Assembly (NCBI GenBank): GCA_025399215.1
Contig: MU621419.1
Location: 1,134-18,524 of the forward strand
From: Globomyces pollinis-pini
Taxonomy: Eukaryota > Chytridiomycota > Chytridiomycetes > Rhizophydiales > Globomycetaceae
Length of the DNA: 17,391 nucleotides
Reading direction: 5' to 3'
Part shown: piece after piece, positions 2,069 through 17,234 of the stretch
How the letters are laid out: the number at the start of each line of letters is the position of its first letter
How positions within the stretch are numbered: the first letter of the stretch is position 1
Notes under the pieces: generated by a model
Told to the model about the DNA's origin: nothing
What the model saw: the letters and a program-made list of their open reading frames with translations, nothing else
The model's database searches: none
Translations under genes and position numbers: made by a program

Positions 2069-4154
2069 ATGCCCCTAGAAACCATGTCCATTAAATCAAA
2101 CCTCCCATATACAATCGCAAGTGAAGTAATTGATACTCCAGTCCAAATCGAACCCGTCAAAGCTGTTACTTTGGCCCTTCAGCAAACTGAACCGAAGTCT
2201 TTACTAATTCAGCATGAAATTCTTCAACAGTTCACCTCTTTCAATCAATTTGGCAAGTATGCATCAACAAACAAGGCAACCTATGAACTCGTTAAAGACT
2301 TTGGATTTAATGAGTTGAGAGACTCTTTGAAAGATGGTTCATTCTACAAAAACCCGGATCTCATCAAATTAGCTCAAAAACGATTCAAACGACTCGCACC
2401 TCTAAACCTAGAGATTAGCCTGATGGTTGATCCCAAAGGAGTCTTCTCTGATCACAACAATAGCATATTTCTAAATACTTTGGCTTTCGAGCATCCAGAA
2501 GTTTACCTTAGCTCATTAAAAGAAGCAATCTCGAATGGATTCAACCGAGAAACGTTTCTTGAAGGATTAACCCAGAACGATATAGTTATAATTTCGAATG
2601 AAGTAGACGAGACTGTATTTAGAGGCAAAGAAACTATCTTGTTTCAAAATCCTTCTTTGAAAATCCAAATAATGAAAGGTATTTAAACCGACTGTATAGT
2701 TTTTATCCAAAAGTTTTGTGCAGAGGTTTGATGGATGCTCTTTCCCATCCAAGCTTCAATACTTCTGCTCAGAATAATTTAGCAATCAGATTTGCTTCTA
2801 GATATGGCCAAACCGAATTAGTCAAACTTTTGTTGAAAGATGAAAGAGTTGATCCTTCTGCTCGAAACAATTCAGCGATTTATGAAGCATCTGGAAATGG
2901 CCATAATCAGATAGTGAAACTCTTGTTACAAGATTCAAGAGTCGATTCTTCTGATGATTTCAATTCGGCCATCAGACTTGCCTCTACAAAAGGCCATAGT
3001 CAGATAGTTAAACTTTTATTGGCAGATTCAAGAGTTGATCCTTCTGCTGATAGTAACCTAGCAATCATACGGGCTGCTTCCTCCGGTCATATTGAAATAG
3101 TCAAACTACTTATGAAAGATTCAAGAGTTGATCCCTCTGCTGATAGAAATGTTGCAGTTGGAACTGCTACTTTGAACGGACATACTCAGATAGTCAAACT
3201 TTTAGAGTTGATCCTTCTGCTCGGGACAATCGCGCAATGAGATGCGCTTCTGAATATTGCCGCACTGAAATAGTCAAACTACTGATGGAAGATTTAAGAG
3301 TTGATCCTTCTGCTAATAGTAATCACGCAATCAGATGGGCTTCTAGGAATGGCGAAACTGAAATAGTCAATCTTTTGTTACAAGATTCAAGAGTGGATCC
3401 TTCTGCTGAAAGCAATTACGCAATCAATTGGGCTTCTAGAAATGGGGATGCTGAACCAGTGAAACGTTTGTTGAAAGATTCAAGAGTTGATCCTGCTGAT
3501 CGGAACAATTACGCGAGCAAATGGGCTTGTAGAAATGGACATGTTGAAGTAGTCAAACTTTTGTTGAAAGATGCAAGAGTTAATCCTTCTGCTGATAACA
3601 ATTTATCGATCCAGGAAGCTTCTAGAAACGGCCATGCTGAGATAGTGAAACTTTTTTTAGAAGATTCAAGAGTGGATCCGTCTGCTGCTAATAATTTAGT
3701 GATCCGCAAAGCTTCTAGAAATGGCCATACCGAGACAGTGAAACTTTTATTGGTAGATTCAAGAGTTGATCCATCTGCTGATAACAATTTAGTGATCCAG
3801 GAAGCTTCTAGAAACGGCCATACAGAAATAGTGAAACTTTTATTACAAGAGTCAAGAGTTGATCCGTCTACTGATTACAATTTAGCTATTCGGGAAGCTT
3901 CTAGACATGGCCATACTGAGACAGTGAAAATTTTATTGGCAGATTCAAGAGTTGATCCTTCGGCTTGGAGCAATTTAGCGATTTGGTTGGCTTCTAGAAA
4001 TGGCCATTCTGAGACACTTCAACTTTTGTTGAAGGATTCAAGAGTTGATACTTTTGCTCTTTACAATTTAGCGATCCGAATGCCAGTTGAAAACGGACAT
4101 ACTGAAATAGTTAAAATATTGGAAAACAGTATAATTGCAAAAGTATCTCAATAA
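2069..4154 (+). pseudogene. Ankyrin-repeat protein, copy 2 (two frameshifts)
   Basis: Three consecutive frames cover one ancestral gene: 2069-2686, then 2716-3240, then 3237-4154 ending TAA. Residues about 43-90 (from LLIQHEILQQF) loosely resemble an F-box-like helical region; this is tentative. Then come linker sequence shared with copy 1 and 15 ankyrin-like units of 31 residues. Compared with copy 1 or with its own repeats, 7 nt are missing at about 2652/2653 and 13 nt at about 3204, each shifting the frame by one. If both are real, translation gives only the N-terminal 205 residues. A 35-nt GT-AG segment (2679-2713) could bypass the first break; nothing convincing bypasses the second. The start at 2069 is the first ATG of the long frame; Met6 (2084) is an alternative. 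F-box plus ankyrin proteins usually select substrates for ubiquitination, but that role is inference here. Confidence 0.7.
2776..4130 (+). repeat. 93-bp ankyrin unit array, copy 2 (15 units)
   Basis: Units begin at Asn codon 2776 and recur every 93 bp to 4065, allowing for the 13-nt deletion at about 3204. Units 10 and 12 are nearly the same (IQEASRNGH core), suggesting recent exchange or duplication within the array. The penultimate unit carries NLAIWLASRNGHSET, the counterpart of the units flanking the TGA in copy 1. Confidence 0.88.
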
Positions 4155-5716: not shown

Positions 5717-6574
5717 ATGAATGGTGTATTGATTGTATTAGTATCCTTGATCTCTTGTGTCTTGAGTAATGTTATCTCAGGTGCAAGAAAGGTATTCCCA
5801 TTAAAAGTTGAAGATGGTGAGAAATATTGGCCTTCGATTGGAAAAGCGGAAGGTGATTTCAGTGGTTCACCTAAAGATGAATTGGATATTATGGAAAGAA
5901 AGTATATCAACTCCTCTATTTCTATTCCAGCAGATAAAGCCTTTATATTGGATTCAAAATTTCAATTCTTGTATGGAACAATTGAATTGGAAAAGGTTGA
6001 TATACAAATTCAAGTGCTTGATCCAGAATATAAAAAAAAGGAATGGTACGTTCCATTGGATCAATGGGGGAATGGGTCTGTAACAGATAAGCAGATAACA
6101 GAGGCGATGGATTCTGCATTTGCATCTCGCGTTTTACTACGATCAGTGTCTGTTGGTTCTGCCAAAGCAGCAGGAACTGGTTTTGAAAGTGTTGGGCCAG
6201 TGAATGATGTTGTGTATGCACAAACTTGGAAGGGGACATTTGGTGGATTGTTTAATGGGAATGCACATCTATCATTTGATAAGTTAAACAAGCAGTCAAT
6301 TTTACAGTTGTTTAATATCAGTATGGTAAAAGTGGAAGGACAAATTGTAAGGGTTGTAACAGAAAAAGCAAGATTTAATCTCGAAGTATCGTATGTAACC
6401 GGAATCTTAGGCAATGGTACGATTAGTAAAGGACCACTTGTTTTAGAAGGGTTAGAATCCAATGCAGTACCAAACAATGGAAGATTTTTGACTATTTTAG
6501 TAGTTATTTTCGGGATATTGTTAGTAGGAGGTGTTTTGATTTACTTTTATCGTCGAAAGCGCGTTTCCAAGTAG
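5717..6574 (+). CDS. Type I single-pass membrane glycoprotein, unknown family (285 aa)
   Basis: The intact intronless frame begins with a hydrophobic signal peptide (MNGVLIVLVSLISCVLS, cleavage around residues 17-22). A luminal or extracellular domain of about 235 residues follows, then one strong transmembrane helix (about 257-278) and a short basic tail YRRKRVSK. Potential N-glycosylation sequons are at N65 (NSS), N119 (NGS), N200 (NIS) and N233 (NGT), which fits passage through the ER. The domain contains beta-like alternating stretches and no cysteine after residue 14, so it is not disulphide-stabilised. I do not recognise the family and assign no function. The start is supported by the signal peptide and the TATA box 38 nt upstream; AATAAA follows the TAG stop by 8 nt. 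Confidence 0.85.
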   Translation: MNGVLIVLVSLISCVLSNVISGARKVFPLKVEDGEKYWPSIGKAEGDFSGSPKDELDIMERKYINSSISIPADKAFILDSKFQFLYGTIELEKVDIQIQVLDPEYKKKEWYVPLDQWGNGSVTDKQITEAMDSAFASRVLLRSVSVGSAKAAGTGFESVGPVNDVVYAQTWKGTFGGLFNGNAHLSFDKLNKQSILQLFNISMVKVEGQIVRVVTEKARFNLEVSYVTGILGNGTISKGPLVLEGLESNAVPNNGRFLTILVVIFGILLVGGVLIYFYRRKRVSK

Positions 6575-6751: not shown

Positions 6752-7960
6752 ATGTTTGCTACTACTCGAATCAACTCAATCAAAAGACATTTCACTACTA
6801 ACAATCATAATATTAACCATATCACTATCATCGGTGCTGGTTTAATGGGTTCCGGTATAAGATCTTATGTTCTAATTCAATTCAGGTATCGTTCAAGTAG
6901 CTGCTCAATCGTATATCCTTTGATGGTCAATTTAATCTTATAGTGGTTATAAAGTCACAATGTGTGATACTTCAGATGCTGCTATTTCGAATGGTAAAAA
7001 TATTATCACAAAGTCCTTGGCTAGAGTCGCAAAAAAGAAATATCCTGATGACCCTGAAGGTAATTCTATGAATATTCTTTTACAATTTTAGGTATCATTG
7101 TCATTTTTCTCTAAACTGGCAGGTATTTACCATCACCTTAACTGATCTTAAAGGTGCCAATTCTTTTATTCAATCTGTATTCAAAAACATTGAAACGTCT
7201 ACTGATCCAAATAATGCTGTCAAAAAAACTGACCTGGTTATCGAAGGTATTGATAATTAATTAACAATAGGTATGAGCTTTGCTTTTATTTACCACTAGG
7301 TATAAAATAAATGAAATTGACAATATTCAGCTATTGTTGAGAACTTGGCTGTTAAACAAAAGTTATTCAAATCTTTAGATGCAAATGCTCCAAAACATAC
7401 AATCTTTTGTTCAAACACATCAAGTTTACCAATCGGTGATATTGCTGTTTCTACCAATCGTCGTTCACAATTTGCAGGATTACATTTCTTCAATCCTGTT
7501 CCACAAATGAAATTGGTTGAAATTGTAAACACCTCTGAAACCACTAACGAAGTTTTGTACGTATTCATATTCTAATTTTCCTAGTACCGCTTTGGAAACT
7601 TTCACCAAAAACATTAAAAAAGTCCCTGTCAAATGCAAAGACACTCCTGGATTTATCGTCAACCGTCTCTTGGTTCCATATATTGGAGAAGCTATCCGTC
7701 TCGTTGAACGTGGGGATGCGTCCAAGGAAGATGTGGACATTGCTATGAAACTTGGAGCTGGTTACCCAATGGGACCTTTTGAACTGGCTGATTATGTTGG
7801 GTTGGATACCATGAAATTCATCAATGATGGTTGGTACACTAGCGGTAAAGGCTTAAAGGGTGAACCTATCTGTGCTCCTTCTCCTTCCGTTAATGAATTA
7901 GTTGCCGAAGGGAAATTGGGTCGTAAATCAGGTGAAGGGTTTTATAATTACAAGAAATAA
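6752..7960 (+). CDS. HADH: 3-hydroxyacyl-CoA dehydrogenase (short-chain, HADH type), 6 exons
   Basis: Exons by codon phase and family continuity: 6752-6854, 6886-6910, 6944-7059, 7154-7246, 7331-7556, 7585-7960. Spliced length is 312 aa, close to the roughly 314 of the animal enzyme. The enzyme oxidises L-3-hydroxyacyl-CoA with NAD+ in mitochondrial beta-oxidation. The first 22 residues are rich in Arg/Lys/Ser/Thr/Asn and free of acidic residues, like a mitochondrial presequence. The Rossmann motif GAGLMGSG is at 28-35. Catalytic His164 and Glu176 (GLHFFNPVP...KLVE) have the family's 12-residue spacing. SNTSS is at 140-144 and [15 protein letters not shown] includes Asn214. The C-terminal domain has GYPMGPFEL and GEGFYNYKK. 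Introns are 31, 33, 94, 84 and 28 nt. The TAA stop lies inside AATAAA. The next gene is tail-to-tail, 79 nt away. Confidence 0.93.
7060..7153 (+). other. Composite intron 3 of HADH: three head-to-tail GT-AG units
   Basis: Exon 3 ends with one base of a Gly codon that exon 4 completes, giving [14 protein letters not shown], the same length as in animal HADH. The 94 nt between them divide as 7060-7091 (32), 7092-7122 (31) and 7123-7153 (31). Each unit starts GTA and ends AG, with AG|GTA junctions and no exon base between. Units 2 and 3 have branch-like CTAAAC and TTAACT. Using only an earlier AG gives immediate in-frame stops. Confidence 0.85.
7247..7330 (+). other. Composite intron 4 of HADH: three head-to-tail GT-AG units
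   Basis: The flanking exons join within an Ala codon to give VIEAIVENL, a continuous family motif, so the 84 nt are intronic. They split as 7247-7270 (24), 7271-7299 (29) and 7300-7330 (31). Every unit is GTAT...AG and both junctions are TAG|GTAT. Confidence 0.85.
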
Positions 7961-8039
7961 ATCAACTCTCCTTATTATTCCAGATCTTTTAAAATGTGCA
8001 TTATGGTAGTGAAAAAAACTCTATATGATTTTATTATAA

Positions 8040-9207
8040 TTATCTTGTAGTGGAATTATTTAAAGTTGAAGATTCAAAATCAACCTTGCTCTTCAACACT
8101 TCATCTTCTTGACCATCAAAAGTAAAGTCCCATTTAACAACCACATCCCCACTATCGCCCGTGTTACCATTATGAGGACGAGCAGGGACTGCATTTGGAT
8201 CCTGCAAACTACCCACCAGTAACCATGTATATTTTTGCCCAGACACTGTACTATACACGTACACAATCGCGAGCGCATGAATATACCCTCGCATTGGTGT
8301 CAACAAACTTCTTGAAAAGAAAATCAACAATTCAATTGGAGAAGCATTTATACAACCTCTTAATACTTCATATTCGGAAACACCATTAAAATATTGAGTC
8401 ATGACATATTTTGCAATCCAAGGTGTCCAATCCAAAACGGTAGCAATACTATAAATCATCACCAATTTCTTCATCACCCCCAAAGCAGTTTTCTTTTCAC
8501 GATCTTCCGTATCAATATCATCCACCTTTTCATTTTTCTTGATTGCAATAAAAATAATCAAATAACAGATCAAATTGATTGTCATACATGTTATGACTGT
8601 ACCTACTACTTGACGAAATACCATCACACAATAGATAGTATCGCAAGTTCTACAAATGATGTTAATTAGATGAGGTTTACTTTGGTAATTGAGGTCGATT
8701 GTATTTGAAAAAGATCTTTTCTTTAAAGATGATGGACCAAGGTAAAAAGTAAGTGAATGTAGGTAAGATCAATATGAATGCAATAACCCAATATTTGTAT
8801 TTCTGTAACCATCGAATTGAACCATTGAATTTTATAATATTGAGGGTATTGAATACAATTGGTAACGTCAATAGACAAGAAGTTAAGGCCATATAATCGA
8901 ATATGACATTAATATAAACATCCCATTGATTTAAATTATTCACAAATTGTTCTAATGACAGTAAACAATAGTAAACTAGTAAATTAATCAAATCAAAGAA
9001 ATTACTTGCTGAACCAAGATCTGTCATGGCAATCACAAACATAAACAAACCCGGTAAATTGTTCAAGATACGGCCTCGATAATATTCATACATAACCCAT
9101 ATGGATCCAAACATTCCAATATAACTACATAAATGCATCAGTCCATAACTGAAATGGAATAATGATGGAAATGGTACCCATACATAAGATACTCCACAAT
9201 CTTTCAT
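8040..9207 (-). CDS. Seven-transmembrane receptor-like protein (putative GPCR), 2 exons
   Basis: Exon 1 is 9207-8681 and exon 2 is 8649-8040. The 31-nt intron (8680-8650) starts GTAAAC, holds TCTAATTAAC and ends TAG. Joining restores phase and gives a 378-residue protein. Seven hydrophobic helices lie at about 14-40, 51-80, 97-124, 137-160, 184-212, 229-250 and 278-308, followed by a roughly 70-residue hydrophilic tail ending NNSTTR. The acidic/basic loop between helices 5 and 6 (KKNEKVDDIDTEDREKK) is typical of a cytoplasmic G-protein-coupling loop. The overall pattern recalls fungal cAMP-receptor-like/Git3-type receptors, but no single diagnostic motif proves the class. TAA is followed by AATAAA after about 7 nt. 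Ligand unknown. Confidence 0.7.
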
Positions 9208-9956
9208 TTTTTTGTATTTGAATTACAATTTATTGGTTGACTTTATGCTCAGTACCCGAATATGGGTTTGGTTCCCGAACTTGATTTTGATTTTTCCTTT
9301 CATTGTGAACAGGGTACTTGACATCAGAATCAAAATCCCTTTACCGTGTTTTCCATTCACATTCAACTCTTTGCTATTGATTTGGATTCATATCTGTCAT
9401 CTCTCATTTTAAATTTGAATTTTTTTTTGATTTCGTACGAATTGAAAGATGGTGGCACAAACCCATGTCTGGGTACTGCTAAATAGGTCCTGACAGAATC
9501 AAATTAAATCTATGGTACCTGTCATACTATCTATTTCATTCCATTCCCTAATCTTCATATATATCCTGTTGTGTTTCATCCAATGATAAAGTCATTTATT
9601 TATACAACACACAACATGATTTTTAATAGTTGTTATAATGAGTGATTCAATTGAAACGTATTCCTAATGGGTATAGTTCCCCTCAATATTTTTTAATATC
9701 GTGCCTGGTTGTTTCATTTTGTACTTGGTACGATGGCTATAGACACTTCAGGTGGACTATCATTGCCACAGTAATGACAAATAAGATCCTTTCAACAAGA
9801 TATCAAGTATCGCTAATACTATTTAGATTTGCGTACTAGGTCGAAATTGTATTTCAATTACTTCCCATGGAATCAAAAGCAAGCAAGATTGGTGTCACCA
9901 AAAAAGTCAACTAAAAAATTGTAAAGAACAGAAAGGATTGGATCAATGATATATAT
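9208..9956. other. Intergenic region, receptor to GPI protein
   Basis: No convincing gene is visible on either strand; the open stretches lack family features and are AT-rich chance frames. TGTTGTGT (9567-9574) and ACACAACA (9609-9616) form an 8-bp inverted pair, and ACAACACA begins at 9604, echoing 5081-5113. Confidence 0.5.
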
Positions 9957-10316
9957 TTAAAAAAGGAAGGCGACAAGGGCGAAAAGGCCATAGGAAACCA
10001 TTACTTGTTGACCATCTACTGCAGCATTTGGAGTTGAAGTTGCAGAACCAGTTGAAGCAGCAGTTGTGAGTTGAGCAGTTTTAGAGACAGTTGTTACTGG
10101 ATTCGTTACTGTTGGTGGTTGAACAGTGATAGTAATCCCATTAGTTGGATTCACGGATGGTTTAATAGTTGGTAGAGTGATTTGAGAAACAGACAAGGAA
10201 GGTAATGGTATAAAGGTCATCAAGTCTGGATTCATTCCCGGAGGAATTCCACCTGGTTCTTGACCCTTTGCCGAAACTGACAATGCTACACATAGAATTG
10301 CATAAATAGAATTCAT
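9957..10316 (-). CDS. Small secreted GPI-anchored-type surface protein (119 aa)
   Basis: The N-terminus MNSIYAILCVALSVSA is a signal peptide with likely cleavage after Ala16. The middle (residues about 20-95) is rich in Thr, Ser, Pro and Val, with almost no charged residues, a typical substrate for dense O-glycosylation. The C-terminus has a small-residue stretch TPNAAVDG, a plausible GPI attachment site near Asn97, then a hydrophobic end SYGLFALVAFLF that reaches the stop, as required for GPI transfer. Such proteins sit on the plasma membrane or become cell-wall linked in fungi. No catalytic domain is visible. A TATA box lies 25 nt upstream of the start. It is divergent to chitin synthase A, with about 0.9 kb between them. 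Confidence 0.8.
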   Translation of the reverse strand: MNSIYAILCVALSVSAKGQEPGGIPPGMNPDLMTFIPLPSLSVSQITLPTIKPSVNPTNGITITVQPPTVTNPVTTVSKTAQLTTAASTGSATSTPNAAVDGQQVMVSYGLFALVAFLF

Positions 10317-10340
10317 TTTTAGGAATTATTTTCCAACTTG

Positions 10341-10348
10341 TCTTTATA
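10341..10348 (-). promoter_or_regulatory. TATA box of GPI-protein gene (TATAAAGA)
   Basis: On the - strand TATAAAGA ends 25 nt before the ATG at 10316, giving a short leader like those of the membrane-protein and HADH genes. Confidence 0.45.
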
Positions 10349-10968
10349 AATCCATTGCTTGGTGTAACCATGCTGTCTGTTTCGAATTCACCCTGGGACT
10401 CTTTGAATTTCAGAATCGTTTGGTAAGATATATTGGATTTGGAATTAGTTACTTTTGTCTTTCATAAAAAGAAAATCATAAACGCGATGGTCTGTGATTG
10501 AAAGTCCTTTTGATGGTTCAGGAGTGAATGGAAAAATATCAAATGTTACTGAAAGGATCAAATAAGTGATGTATGCATTCCGTAACAATTAAAGCTTTTG
10601 ATTCAGAGGTTAATCTTGAATAAATCATAGTCATAATGGAATTGTCAAAGTGTACCTAGGTGGGGGGAATATCAGGAATCTTTAAAGTTGGCTGTAACAA
10701 ATATCTGTAGAATCTACTGATAATCAATCTACTGAAGATTGTAATTCAGCATCTAAAAGCGATTGCAAGATGAATGGGTTGGTTAAAATACTCAATTGGT
10801 GTGATTTCATACAGCAATTGTTATTTAATATGAAATAGAATTGAGTTGTTTGAGCAATGGTAATCATTAAGAAGATCAAGTCCTTTAAGTATTGTTGGTT
10901 CTTGAAGGGAGAACTAGAGCCATTTCAAGTTCGATTTAAATTAAACTGACAAGAGTACTTGACTGTAG

Positions 10969-11005
10969 TTATCCATTAGTAGTAGTGACTACAATTAATG
11001 GATAA
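10969..11005. repeat. Inverted repeat with nested stem, TTATCCATTA / TAATGGATAA
   Basis: Perfect 10-bp arms (10969-10978 and 10996-11005) enclose a second perfect 5-bp stem, GTAGT/ACTAC, with a 4-nt loop and a 3-nt bulge. It lies about 225 bp before the CHS-A ATG. It could be a dimeric factor site or an RNA or DNA hairpin; function is unknown. Confidence 0.55.
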
Positions 11006-11048
11006 AAGAGTTTGACTACTTCAGAATCCATTAACCAAACACCGCACA

Positions 11049-11234
11049 ATGATACCAACACTGTACAAACAACAATCATACTACCTACAGTTACTACCAA
11101 CAACTACTATCGACTCTTTATCTTTGAAAAGGCAACGTTACCAGCCTGTGATTGAGTGCGTCTGCAAACTCCGAAAAAGGCACTGCCGTCAGAGACTCAA
11201 AGACTCAAGCCTACATTTCATTTCTTACCCATGA
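11049..11234 (+). other. Upstream reading frame ending on the CHS-A start (ATGA)
   Basis: ATG at 11049 opens 61 codons that end with TGA at 11232-11234, overlapping the CHS-A ATG at 11231 as ATGA. The predicted peptide shows no known domain. If it lies in the transcript it would be a uORF able to influence chitin synthase translation; transcript start is unknown. Confidence 0.3.
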
Positions 11235-13834
11235 GTTATCAACCTCAATTTAACTCAAATACTATTGGAACTAGGTATGGATTCTTAATCTAATTCTTAG
11301 GTATTTTACTGCTTTATGGTCTAATATATTTTAGGTACTGATATTCTATCTCATCAAAAGGTCTCGTTTAACGAGAAAACAAACCCAAAAGGTCGGAAAG
11401 CAGGGTAACTTTGTCTTGCATATTCCTGTCGCTGCTCAAGTGCTCGAAGGCTGTAAATACAAAGATGGCCATGAATTCACTCAAATCACTTACACTGCTG
11501 TCACTCAGGAACCTAGACCTCCTGGTAATTGATTTTCTTTCTAAGTATTTCTTAGAAGGTGCTTCCGAACATGACTACCCTCATGAAACTGATACGTTCA
11601 AGAATAAATATCAACTTCGACAAAAAGCAATGGGTCGGGAGATTAAAGTCGCATTAGTGATGACTATGTATAACGAAGATGATCAACTGTTTCTGAAATC
11701 AATGCGTTCTGCTCAGATTAATATTGATTACCTATGGTATTGGATTTCTACTTATTGTCTAGTTCGCGACAATGTCCATTTAGTTGGGGTCCTGATGGTT
11801 GGAAAAACTTTTTGGTCGTCATTGTATCTGATGGTCGTCAAAAAATCAATCCAAGAGTATTGACTGTCTTGGAAGTTATGGGATTGTATGTTGATAAAGT
11901 ACACAAGACAAATATCGATAGTGTACCAGTTGAAGCTCATTTTTATGAATTCACTACCCAAGTGTCTGTGCATAAATCTCAATTGGAACGAAGAGCTGTA
12001 CCTACTCAATGTGTTTTTGTATTGAAAGAGAAAAATGCCAAAAAGGTATCTCTATTTGACTCATTCTAGATTAATTCTCATAAATGGTTCTTTAATGCTG
12101 TTTGTGGTTCGGTTAACCCTGAAGTCTGTATGCTTTTGGATGTCGGTACAAAACCATCCGATACTTCACTCTTCCACCTCTATCGTGCTTTCGAACGTGA
12201 CCAAAAAGTTGGAGGTGCTTGTGGTGAAATCAAGGCTGAATTAGGATTTGGTTGGAAAAATTTACTCAACCCAATTGTAGCTGCTCAAAACTTTGAAGTA
12301 TTTTTTTTGTATTAACAAACTAGTATAAAATGAGTAACATTTTGGATAAACCTTTGGAATCTGTGTTTGGTTATATTTCTGTTTTGCCTGGTGCTTTCTC
12401 TGCATATCGTTATCGTGCCCTTCTTGGACGTCCGTTGGAACAATATTTTGCAGGTGAAAACCCATTGGCCGATATCTTTACATCCAATTTGTATTTGGCA
12501 GAAGATCGTATTTTATGTTTTGAATTGGTGACCAAAAAGGATGAAGCCTATGTCCTGAAGTATGTCAAAACTGCTAATGCTGAAACTGATGTCCCTGATA
12601 CTTTGGATGAATTGGTTTCTCAACGTCGTCGTTGGTTGAACGGATCTTTCTTTTGTTCCGTTCATGCTCTCATGCATTTCACACAAATCTATAGAAGTCC
12701 GCATTCATTTTATCAAAAAGTGTTATTCACGATTGAATTTTTTTACAATGCCATCAATTTAGTATTCACTTGGTTCGGTGTTGCCAACTTCTACTTGTCC
12801 TTTTATGTATATTAAAACTCTACTAACAACTAGTTTCTTTTCGATGTACGTAAATCCCGGTCAGATGATGAATTTATTGCCGATGACAAAAACGATCCTT
12901 TTGCCCCATTTGGTGATCAAGTTTTCGAAACTTTGAACTATATTTACATGTTTTTACTCTTTTCCATGTTTGTGACAGCTTTGGGTAACAGACCTCGCGG
13001 AACTCGATGGTTATATAAATCAATGTCGGTTTTCTTTGCTACCATTATGGCTTTGATGTTGTTTATGGGTGGATGGTCAATTCGTCAATCTATTGTCAAA
13101 TATTATTCAGATAAAGGAAATCAACAGAATTTTATTGATTATGTACGAAAAAATCCTATTTTCAGGGATGTTGCTATTTCAGTGTTTTCCACCTATGGTC
13201 TCTACTTGGCTGCTTCTGTTATGCATCTTGATCCTTGGCATATATTTACCAGTCAAATCCAATATCTGTTCCTCCTTCCTACTTATCTAAACGTATTTAT
13301 GATCTATTCGTTCTGTAATCTTCATGATGTAAGAAACAATTATATTTATCCTAGGTGACTTGGGGAACCAAGGGAGCAACAAAGGAAGAACCAGTGGCAG
13401 CTGTGAAGAAGACAGTACAAGCTGATGGTACAGCTGTCTTTGAGTATATCTCTGTGGATGAAAGTGATATCAATGACCATTGGGTTGAAACCAAGCAACG
13501 TATGGATCAAGAATATTCCAATCCACCACAATCTAGTGGTAAACGTTCTGATTCCGACAAACGAGAAGATGCAACCAAAACTTTCCGTACCAAGATTGTA
13601 CTATTTTGGATTTTTTGTAATGTGGGATTAATTGCAATTTTCACAAATGGATACACTCTTAGTATCCTCTTCCCTAACCATGCTGGAGAAGCTAATCCAT
13701 ATTTGACATTCTTGTTCTGGTCAGTGGCTGGACTCAGTTTTGTACGATTCTTGGGTAGTTGTGTGTACATGGTTGGATGGTGGAGTGAAAAAATGGTGGA
13801 TGCTGGTAAATCAACGATGCAATCTAAAGTTTAA
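11231..13834 (+). CDS. CHS: Chitin synthase A (division 1 type), 8 exons
   Basis: Exons: 11231-11274, 11361-11524, 11556-11736, 11763-12045, 12070-12297, 12324-12806, 12834-13328, 13355-13834; 785 aa. It polymerises GlcNAc from UDP-GlcNAc into chitin at the plasma membrane (GT2 family). The N-terminal chitin-synthase domain starts near [12 protein letters not shown]. Nucleotide-binding MTMYNEDD is at 105-112, LLDVG with Asp248 follows [16 protein letters not shown] has Asp361, and QRRRW is at 400-404. Multiple C-terminal helices follow ([30 protein letters not shown], others), with a cytosolic segment containing [16 protein letters not shown] and [14 protein letters not shown] indicate division 1 (classes I-III). 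The N-terminus is short (about 30 residues before the domain) and lacks a myosin motor. Introns are 86, 31, 26, 24, 26, 27 and 26 nt; the 27-nt intron has TACTAAC. Confidence 0.95.
11275..11360 (+). other. Composite intron 1 of CHS-A: three head-to-tail GT-AG units
   Basis: Exon 1 ends two bases into an Arg codon, which the first base of exon 2 completes, restoring the frame that aligns with CHS-B. The 86 nt split as 11275-11300 (26), 11301-11334 (34) and 11335-11360 (26). Each unit starts GTA and ends AG; both internal junctions are TTAG|GTA. Units 1 and 2 have CTAAT branch-like sequences. CHS-B has a single 39-nt intron at the corresponding place. Confidence 0.82.
13329..13354 (+). other. 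CHS-A-specific intron 7 (26 nt)
   Basis: GTAAGA...CCTAG interrupts [11 protein letters not shown] in phase 0. CHS-B has the same codons uninterrupted at 16742/16743. It is a clean presence/absence difference between tandem paralogues. Confidence 0.88.
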
Positions 13835-14663
13835 TGACTTGATTTATTTTATTAGTTGTTACTTGATTTTTATAAATAAATTGAGATTGAATTTTCTTTG
13901 TTTTTTTTCTTTTTTTTATGATTGACATTGGATTTGGGTGAATGGTTCGATTGTAATGTTTTTTCTCAACACTTGAAAGCAGTTGAAAAAATACAAAACA
14001 ATCCAAGCATTCGCCATGTTGATCCTTATTGTAACCTTGGATATTTCACTTGTTTGAATCAGTATCTTGAATATTAAATACAACCTTCAAACAAAAACAA
14101 AAACATCTCTCATCAAAAAATAGACACTGCGATAGATCAATTCTAGTATTAACGAGTCAAGATGATTGGGTGATATATAATCACTGACTATTTACAACTT
14201 CTCATCCATCTTTAAACTCACAACTAATGAGTTTTTGAGTTGATATTACCAAAAACTTCATGAGTAACTCACAAACTTTACACTCCAAAGGTGCATTTGC
14301 GTTTGGAACAGATTTAGGAGTGCCAAGCAATGTAAGTTGAAAGACTTTGGTAAATCTTACAATTGAATTTCTCAGTTCATGAGATATATATATAGCCCAG
14401 CCGTAGTATAAATCACAGAATCTGAATCTGATGTTTGACTATTTGAAAAATAAAGAGTTGTTTTTACTTCATATTGAAAAATCCAATATCATGCTACATA
14501 CAATAGAGATCTACATAAATACAATCTACCAACAAAAATAACTCGCTAGCTGTGTAGGTTTGAAGTAACGAATCGACCACTTCGCCTGGGATTTTTCAAT
14601 GTGCTTCGCCGATCACTTTCAGTTTTGTTTAAAAAACTTGTAGTTTACAATCATCATATTGAA
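13835..14663. other. Intergenic region between the chitin synthases
   Basis: An AATAAA lies 41 nt after the CHS-A stop. T-rich and A-rich tracts follow (about 13898-13918 and 14090-14105). AACTCACAA occurs twice (14215-14223 and 14266-14274). A TATATATATAG and a TATAAA-like site lie at about 14384-14412. A possible two-exon micro-frame is at 14260-14411. No tRNA or conserved gene seen. Confidence 0.5.
13875..13880 (+). terminator. Poly(A) signal AATAAA of CHS-A
   Basis: The canonical hexamer begins 41 nt downstream of the TAA at 13834 and is followed by T-rich sequence, as expected around a fungal cleavage site. Confidence 0.5.
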
Positions 14664-17234
14664 ATGAATTATCAAAGACTAAATCCTCGTCAAGTAGAAG
14701 AAGGTTCATCATACATACCCATTGACCCATCATTACAAAAGTATCATTAAACGATTGAATTGATTTCATTTTTAAATAGAACAATACGAAGAAAGAAGAC
14801 TGTTAATGCACGTCAAGGTCGATTTACATTACATGTTCCAGTAGCTCATCAAGTATTGGAAGGATGTCCATATAGAAACGAGGATGAATTTACTCATTTA
14901 ACTTATACTGCAGTTACTGAAGAACAACGACCACCAGGTAATCTAATTATTTTTTATCTATTGATTAAAGATGGAGCAAATGAACATGATTATCCACATG
15001 AAGCCGATACTTTCAAGTTCAAGTATCAGTTACGACAACGTGCTCTATCAAGACAAATCAAAGTTGCATTAGTCATGACGATGTACAATGAAGATGATAT
15101 TTTATTTCTGAAATCTATGCGATCCGTTCAAATCAATATTGAATATTTATGGTGAGTTTATCAAAATCTAACAACCCAGTTCAAAACATTGTCCATTTAG
15201 TTGGGGTCAAGAAGGTTGGAAAAACTTTTTGGTGGTTATAGTATCGGATGGACGACAGAAAATCAATCCTCGAGTGTTGACGGTTTTAAATGTTATGGGT
15301 ATCTATCAAGATAACCTTCATCGAACTCAAATCGATCAAGTACCTGTAGCAGCTCATTTTTATGAATTCACCACTCAAATATCCATTCGAAATGCCAAGA
15401 TTGAAGTTCGAAAAGTTCCTACTCAAGTTGTTTTTATTCTTAAAGAAAAGAATGCAAAGAAGGTATAGATAAATTATTTGATTGTGTAGATTAACTCTCA
15501 TAAATGGTTCTTTAATGCTGTTTGTGATTCTGTAATTCCAGAGGTTACCATGCTATTGGATGTGGGAACGAAACCATCTGATAAATCCTTGTATCATCTT
15601 TATCGAGCGTTTCAACGTAACCCAATGGTAGGCGGTGCTTGTGGAGAAATCAAAGCAGAGTTAGGATTTGGTTGGAAAAATCTTTGGAATCCAATGGTTG
15701 CTGGGCAAAACTTTGAAGTAATCTATCCATTTTAATGATTCAGTATAAAATGAGTAATATCCTGGATAAGCCGTTAGAGTCTATTTGCGGGTATATTTCT
15801 GTTTTACCTGGTGCTTTTTCTGCATATCGTTATGTTGCATTACAAGGCAGACCATTAGAACAATATTTCGCAGGTGAAAACCCATTGGCTGACATCTTTA
15901 CATCCAATTTGTATTTGGCAGAAGATCGTATTTTATGTTTTGAACTGGTGACAAAGAGGAATGAGGCATATATTCTTAAGTATGTGAAATCTGCCAATGC
16001 TGAAACGGATGTTCCTGATACTTTGGATGAGCTGGTTTCTCAACGTCGTCGTTGGTTGAATGGATCTTTCTTTTGTTCCGTTCATGCTCTCATGCATTTC
16101 ACTCAAATCTATAGGAGTCCTCATAGCTTCATTCAAAAAGTGATCTTTACATTTGAATTTCTGTACAATGCTATCAATTTAGTATTCACCTGGTTCGGTG
16201 TTGCCAATTTCTACCTGTCTTTTTATGTATCCCAATTGCTTTTCTAATATTACTAGTTTTTGTTTAATGTCCGAAAAAATTTGTCACTTGAAGAGTTTAC
16301 CAGTAAAGATCAATTAGACCCTTTTGCACCATATGGTGATCAAGTGTTTTCTGTTTTGGATAATCTTTACAAATTTCTATTATTCACAATGTTTATCACT
16401 GCATTGGGAAATCGTCCAAGAGGAACCCGTTGGCTGTACAAAACTATGTGTGTCTTTTTTGCCCTGATTATGTCATTGATGCTGTTCATGAGTGGTTATA
16501 CCATCTATACTCTTGTTCAGCTATTTTTGGTGGATAGGCGAAACTGGTTGGCCATATTTTTAGAGAAGCAAGTTTATAGGGATATGGTTTTATCGGTTGT
16601 CTCAACTTATTTGATCTACCTCTTGGCATCTATCATTCATCTAGACCCCTGGCACATATTTACCTGTTTGATCCAATACTTGCTGCTTATACCTACATAT
16701 CTGAATGTGTTCATGATTTATTCATTTTCCAATTTACACGATGTTACATGGGGAACGAAGGGAGCTACTACCGCAGAACCAATTGCGGCGGTCAAGAAAA
16801 CAGTTGGAAGTGATGGGGAGGTCATGTATGAATTTGAAGCAGTTGAGCCAGAGAACTTGGATAATGTGTGGTTAGCGAAAAAGCAACAGATGCTTAATGA
16901 ATACCATAATCCACCAAAAAGTGACAATAAGAGAAGTGCTTCTGATAAGCGGACAGATGCTACCAAAACGTTCCGAACCAAGATTGTGTTATTTTGGATT
17001 ATTTGTAATACCCTGTTGATCCTGATTTTTACGAATGAATACGTTCTGGGTCTAATAACTGCACCACCAAAGAGTGAAAAAGATATCGCAATCAATCCGT
17101 ACTTGGCTTTCCTTCTATGGTCAGTAGCTGCTTTGGGAGCCGTTCGGTTTGTGGGAAGTTGTATCTTTATGGTTCAATGGTCTCTGGAAAGAATGCGAGA
17201 CAGGGCAGAATCATTAATGTTAAAATTGAAGTAA
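14664..17234 (+). CDS. CHS: Chitin synthase B (division 1 type), 7 exons
   Basis: Exons: 14664-14740, 14780-14937, 14971-15151, 15180-15462, 15490-15717, 15744-16226, 16257-17234; 795 aa. It is the tandem paralogue of CHS-A in the same orientation. Exons 3 to 6 have identical lengths in both genes (181, 283, 228 and 483 nt). All key motifs are kept: [43 protein letters not shown] and [11 protein letters not shown]. The C-terminal membrane region includes [15 protein letters not shown] and [16 protein letters not shown]. The N-terminus [14 protein letters not shown] mirrors MSYQPQF of CHS-A, supporting the start. Introns are 39, 33, 28, 27, 26 and 30 nt; CHS-A intron 7 is absent. The 33-nt intron 2 lacks a stop and is a multiple of three. 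The TAA stop overlaps AATAAA. Silent divergence is considerable, so the duplication is not recent. Confidence 0.95.

Follow-up and report, generated by a model that had tools for sequence, protein, structure and literature searches.

In zero-nucleotide recursive splicing, described for Drosophila and human, a juxtaposed AG|GU serves in turn as acceptor and donor and leaves no trace in the mRNA; the introns for which the process is known measure tens to hundreds of kilobases (passages of PMC13149111). The stwintrons of ascomycete fungi comprise several U2-type units that are removed consecutively and are nested, in that an internal intron breaks up a splice signal belonging to the external intron, which forces the order of removal; a model in which an extant intron is split exists for them (passages of PMC7138796). 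Among ciliates, the micro-introns of Stentor have 15–16 nucleotides (nt), are AU-rich and lack a strong branch consensus, and those of Paramecium bursaria have a median of 24 nt (passages of PMC9505925 and PMC12862383). Here we describe introns of Globomyces pollinis-pini, a chytrid of the order Rhizophydiales, starting from a stretch of 17,391 nt of its 18.5-Mb, 459-contig genome (hereafter the window, G000:C330:1134-18524; positions given without a contig refer to it). It contains three genes, coding for 3-hydroxyacyl-CoA dehydrogenase (HADH) and chitin synthases 1 and 2 (CHS1 and CHS2), with introns of about 30 nt, some of which form chains, that is, at least two micro-introns in direct contact. 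These chains are probably excised unit by unit, in what would be zero-nucleotide recursive splicing with steps of only about 30 nt.

Zero-nucleotide recursive splicing is the nearest known principle for the chains: both have AG|GT joints within the sequence that is removed, six of them in the window and, as their spacing indicates, others genome-wide. Unlike in animals, the putative steps are mostly 24–40 nt long, belong to a fungus and involve at most five decoded units; and unlike the very long introns of that type, called chains do not exceed 138 nt, or 222 nt in the case of an intron of the VRG4b gene. As with stwintrons, we are dealing with complex fungal introns of several units, but here the units lie side by side, each of them complete and free of any imposed order. 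No stwintron-type nesting was seen in eight chains, which were picked as called chains and not searched systematically for nested readings: each tiles into complete, adjoining GT...AG units. The VRG4b intron tiles incompletely. Like that of ciliates, the Globomyces spliceosome processes very short introns, but the fungus also has chains and a minority of 63–200-nt introns, and the ciliate passages (PMC9505925, PMC12862383) mention no tandem chains. Tandem duplication or Introners could also yield adjacent introns at AG|GT, and one double, in the DOHH gene, looks like a recent duplicate; neighboring units for the most part hardly exceed random introns in similarity. The paper PMC9860276 does not mention chytrid, tandem, nested or aggt, and has stwintron once, in its reference list. 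None of the literature matches listed, from a search outside which most subscription papers lie, concerned micro-intron chains or Globomyces introns.

We remodeled the three window genes from their DNA; all are open frames on the forward strand. HADH (312 aa; 6752–7960), also identified by identity to an annotated protein, has in order introns of 31, 33, 32+31+31, 24+29+31 and 28 nt, namely three simple micro-introns (6855–6885, 6911–6943 and 7557–7584) and two chains, A of 94 nt (7060–7153, units 7060–7091, 7092–7122 and 7123–7153) and B of 84 nt (7247–7330, units 7247–7270, 7271–7299 and 7300–7330). CHS1 (785 aa; 11231–13834), for which a similarity search with one exon as query returned chitin synthases, has one chain of 86 nt (11275–11360, units of 26, 34 and 26 nt at 11275–11300, 11301–11334 and 11335–11360), supported by the gene model and by the stops that retention would introduce, followed by six simple introns of 31, 26, 24, 26, 27 and 26 nt. 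CHS2 (795 aa; 14664–17234) has no chain and six simple introns of 39, 33, 28, 27, 26 and 30 nt. The three composite introns, 264 nt in total, thus consist of nine units of 24–34 nt (mean 29.3), and the 15 simple introns measure 24–39 nt (mean 29.0). AG|GTA occurs at all six internal joints of the composites; these are six of only 20 AGGTA on the forward strand of the whole window, far beyond what chance would place in 264 nt. When the interiors of the composites were shuffled with their ends kept (4000 times each), full tiling was rare: 0.05%, 1.6% and 0.7% for the 94-, 84- and 86-nt introns, respectively. Retaining units in any of the 21 possible combinations, seven for each chain, led in every case to an early stop. 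Finally, the annotated Globomyces pollinis-pini protein P0241 (281 aa) is 100% identical to the HADH model over 90% of the model and continues uninterrupted across both of its chains, reading PDDPEGANSFIQ over the 94-nt one and DLVIEAIVENL over the 84-nt one. The preliminary description of this locus had listed 16 simple introns of 24–39 nt, of which the size range stands and the number does not, one 31-nt intron having been counted too many; its three composites of nine units and six AGGTA joints agree with the gene models, and the two in HADH also with P0241, and the excess of AGGTA at unit-like spacing that it had pointed out is confirmed.

We considered a chain as fully removed when an alignment without gaps, or protein identity, extended across the splice site. 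Seven chains are supported in this way: the two of HADH, a triple in UXS (28, 27 and 37 nt), a chain of five units in a CLK kinase (25, 27, 29, 28 and 29 nt) and doubles in DOHH (29 and 29 nt), SPT3 (31 and 34 nt) and Rieske (32 and 30 nt), the last five by gap-free alignment over the site. While full removal rests on homology and annotated protein, stepwise excision and the origin of the chains are what we infer, the former from the spacing of units, the micro-intron-like last unit and the quantized joints.

This quantization extends to the whole genome (the spacings given below are those of the first 100 places listed per search). TAGGTA pairs 20–39 nt apart number 169+232 = 401, compared with about 42 expected per 20-nt bin under a Poisson model with the TAGGTA density of a 310-kb sample; 93 of the first 100 listed spacings of these 401 pairs fall at 24–36 nt, where a uniform distribution would place 65. 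Pairs 40–59 nt apart number 50+68 = 118, and 90 of the first 100 listed lie at 50–59 nt, matching the sum of two units. TAGGTA triples amount to 47+60 = 107, against 0.2 expected. The chains of micro-introns with zero-length exons that had been proposed from the window are therefore real, genome-wide and unit-sized. In the 310-kb sample, eight TAGGTA pairs have a spacing of 20–39 nt, and the gene model places seven of them in multi-unit introns; three of these seven lie in the window, and one falls in an intron that includes a 174-nt piece and was not counted as a chain. In 242 kb without the window, 23 AGGTA pairs at 20–39 nt compare with about nine expected. One TAGGTA pair with 35-nt spacing, at C1:33761-33801, lies outside called chains; the DNA there can be read as units of about 33, 35 and 30 nt, with a downstream frame that did not fit. 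Runs reach seven TAGGTA joints (C102:3738-3929 and C194:3382-3560), where simple minisatellites may be involved.

The intron sample comes from a gene finder applied to 310 kb, which permitted introns of 12–200 nt and tandem units, used a learned length prior and splice-site models trained on micro-introns, and priced a tandem unit below a separate intron. With 198 kb of predicted coding sequence, it called 687 intron sites, 664 of them single and 23 multi-unit. In 20 of the latter every unit is shorter than 45 nt (11 doubles, five triples, three fours and one five), so that chains make up about 3% of called intron sites. The typical intron has about 28 nt, and the micro-intron type can be defined as 24–36 nt, GTA...TAG, AT-rich and with a weak branch site. 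Among the 171 sites with a coding score above 8 on both flanks, 159 are single introns of 20–36 nt, two are chains and ten are longer (63–199 nt, some of them false calls); the main class is thus shorter than 40 nt, as in a micro-intron genome. No single intron of 44–62 nt was called among the 664, a gap to which the length prior contributes: a run with a flat length prior did call untiled introns of 49–63 nt, several of them false. The raw list of that run, which merged genes and skipped exons, was set aside as main evidence; many of its 118 introns of at least 46 nt look false (e.g., those at window offsets 12761, 15151 and 1148), and in this unreliable list 14 of the 118 can be divided fully into units, where shuffled sequences would lead one to expect 2.3. 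Chains lie closer to the gene start than other introns (median codon 86 vs 224, Mann-Whitney p 0.0004), and their enrichment among first introns (6/20 vs 99/627) is not significant (p 0.12). A search for U6 with Rfam gave no match in the Globomyces genome, nor in the control genomes.

A minority of introns is both long and single. We accepted these when a homology alignment that lacked no residues, or identity to an annotated protein, extended across the splice. Protein identity supports a 63-nt intron in PP2A-A, the PP2A scaffold (contig C20), whose predicted protein matches the annotated Globomyces pollinis-pini protein P0121 with 100% identity along 587 aa. Homology supports introns of 74 nt in MKK (shortly downstream of the junction the query carries five additional residues, and it lacks none), 76 nt in Spt6, 82 and 199 nt in CCT6, 181 nt in rpS3, and 198 and 200 nt in VRG4a. 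None of these eight contains AGGT, and the PP2A-A intron cannot consist of units because it has no internal AG at all. For the comparison of branch sites we added three less certain introns, two of 84 and 85 nt that are presumably genuine and one of 75 nt that precedes the aligned part of DOHH. The motif CTAAY lies near the 3' end in eight of these 11 long introns, 43 of 272 micro-introns and in the last unit of none of the 20 chains (Fisher 2e-5 for the contrast of long introns with chains). Of the eight introns supported by alignment or identity, six have it; before false or unsupported calls were dropped and two added, it was present in nine of 16 long calls (Fisher vs chains 1.2e-4). The last units of chains hence resemble micro-introns, not long introns. 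Long calls in IDE (93 and 86 nt), ProRS (114 nt) and XDH (186 nt) were rejected as presumably false for want of conserved stretches, as were calls of 196 and 177 nt in an apparent merged gene at C1:2848. In the 11 long introns (C20, C300), AG and GT are scarcer than in shuffles (22 vs 32.3 and 26 vs 43.8, respectively), as if sites that would make micro-units were avoided; AG is also low in the bodies of micro-introns (100 vs 160.9), so that the shortage may be a general intron feature. TTAGGG-like repeats occupy L028:226-400 (C20 near 70226-70400), in the predicted first intron region of CCT6.

A probable course of splicing can be outlined. The Globomyces spliceosome would be adapted to micro-introns with a weak branch site. 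Where neighboring micro-introns lie in contact at AG|GT, the exon between them has zero length. Since every unit has its own putative donor, branch region and acceptor, it would most likely suffice for its own excision through intron definition. Each excision would preserve an exon|GT or AG|GT, leaving the remaining units removable in any order, and all complete routes would lead to an identical mRNA. The minority of ordinary introns (63–200 nt in the sample) is spliced whole and mostly has a stronger branch site.

Several observations weigh against unit-by-unit excision. Splicing in one step, with the first GT of a chain used directly with its last AG, would yield the same mRNA, and the long single introns show that the spliceosome can bridge distances of the size of a chain. 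In only six of the 20 chains do both flanks reach a coding score above 5, and in only two a score above 8, which slightly reduces our confidence in the stepwise reading; moreover, a gene finder trained on micro-introns in part imposes the signals that it reports within chain units. The first unit of a chain starts with GTA in only 13 of 20 cases, compared with 253 of 272 simple introns. Two of the 20 chains belong to the single 222-nt intron of VRG4b, which tiles imperfectly (27, 39, 31, 63, 33 and 29 nt) and for which no tiling into 20–45-nt units exists. Last, the reversed word ATGGAT gives 192+176 = 368 pairs at 20–39 nt, 166+164 = 330 at 40–59 nt, and 15 triples, above the 2.8 expected. 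This word is not a matched control because it is commoner than TAGGTA (355 vs 148 in the 310-kb sample, with about 244 pairs expected per bin), and it shows little spacing preference.

Chains could accordingly be long introns spliced once, whose internal AG|GT are inactive relics of fusion or duplication. Beyond the shared mRNA product and the existence of spliced 63–200-nt introns, this alternative draws on the DOHH double, a clear tandem duplicate with 25 of 29 positions identical (similarity 0.72), and on five of 34 adjacent unit pairs that exceed the 95th percentile of random pairs, where 1.7 would be expected. Nevertheless, we consider it unlikely. Neighboring units are mostly unrelated, about as dissimilar as random micro-introns (mean similarity 0.15 vs 0.13), with one pair of 34 beyond the 99th percentile, yet they have kept a complete GT...AG spacing; their last units lack the CTAAY typical of long introns; and joint spacing is quantized genome-wide. 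The same comparison, made within chains only, searched for near-identical copies of the Introner kind, and 33 of the 34 pairs do not exceed the 99th percentile.

Excision unit by unit is also compatible with an origin by chance, in which dense micro-introns at proto-splice sites sometimes strike one point. The high intron density speaks for such clustering, but random insertion nearby would also fill the small exon classes, and the gene model has 38 zero-length exons (34 of them within the 20 chains), against four of 1–9 nt and ten of 10–19 nt, an excess biased somewhat by the lower price of a tandem unit; we regard this origin as quite improbable. The chains fit either of two routes: a unit added where a junction was already present, or longer introns split up as new AG|GT joints arose in them. 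The CHS1 chain and the single 39-nt intron of CHS2 (14741–14779, forward strand) occupy nearly the same place, at most about three codons apart when the translations are compared by eye, and VRG4a (C20:30618) has one 25-nt intron where VRG4b (C20:36588) has its 222-nt intron, read as five micro-units plus one 63-nt piece. These two gene pairs suggest that chains may grow and shrink by units.

A strict ceiling, under which introns above about 40 nt exist only as multiples, holds at each of the 18 intron sites in the three window genes and agrees with the lack of decoded 44–62-nt single introns under the learned prior, but it is refuted by the eight supported introns of 63–200 nt without AGGT, barring their splicing through non-canonical nested units. 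This was the rule put forward in the preliminary description, together with a spliceosome that handles only very short introns, which spliced single introns of this size exclude, and with many 50–100-nt introns lacking AG|GT joints named as evidence against it; introns of 63, 74, 76 and 82 nt are of this kind, although they are a small minority of all introns. The spliceosome may still prefer very short introns.

A wider picture seems to us possible rather than probable when taken as a whole. One spliceosome would act on two substrates, micro-introns whose branch site is loose, and long introns, which are rare and mostly carry a strong CTAAY. Within genes, sequence failing the requirement of long introns would persist only if AG|GT joints divided it into units of micro-intron size. 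Obligate recursive chains would on this view number about a thousand in the 18.5-Mb genome, as scaled up from 20 chains in 310 kb, and would change in length by one excisable unit at a time. Work on recursive splicing has dealt with animal introns of enormous size, whose intermediates are difficult to capture; a compact fungus in which candidate chains of 30-nt units may number about a thousand would offer a natural test of the gain and loss of adjacent introns. The chains also bear on the minimum size of spliceosomal introns and on how far serial excision without fixed order is tolerated at scale. For annotation, gene callers that need an exon between introns, or that penalize introns of 60–200 nt where micro-introns prevail, will miscall such sites.

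Other features of the window deserve mention. Compared with the HADH model, P0241 is short of 31 residues at the N terminus (6752–6885) and opens with MGSGIV; the relative P0243 has this part, in which the nucleotide-binding motif begins. Two related genes of repeated units, presumably ankyrin-like, lie at 1–1368 and 2069–4154, and both appear interrupted. The first has an in-frame TGA at 1198–1200, which the gene finder spanned with a doubtful 63-nt intron; the second shows frame changes and was split into 2069–3240 and 3285–4154, with a doubtful 35-nt intron at 2679–2713. Between these genes and HADH, an intronless frame of 285 codons (5717–6574) could, to judge by eye, encode a protein that is secreted or membrane-bound and has a membrane segment near its C terminus.

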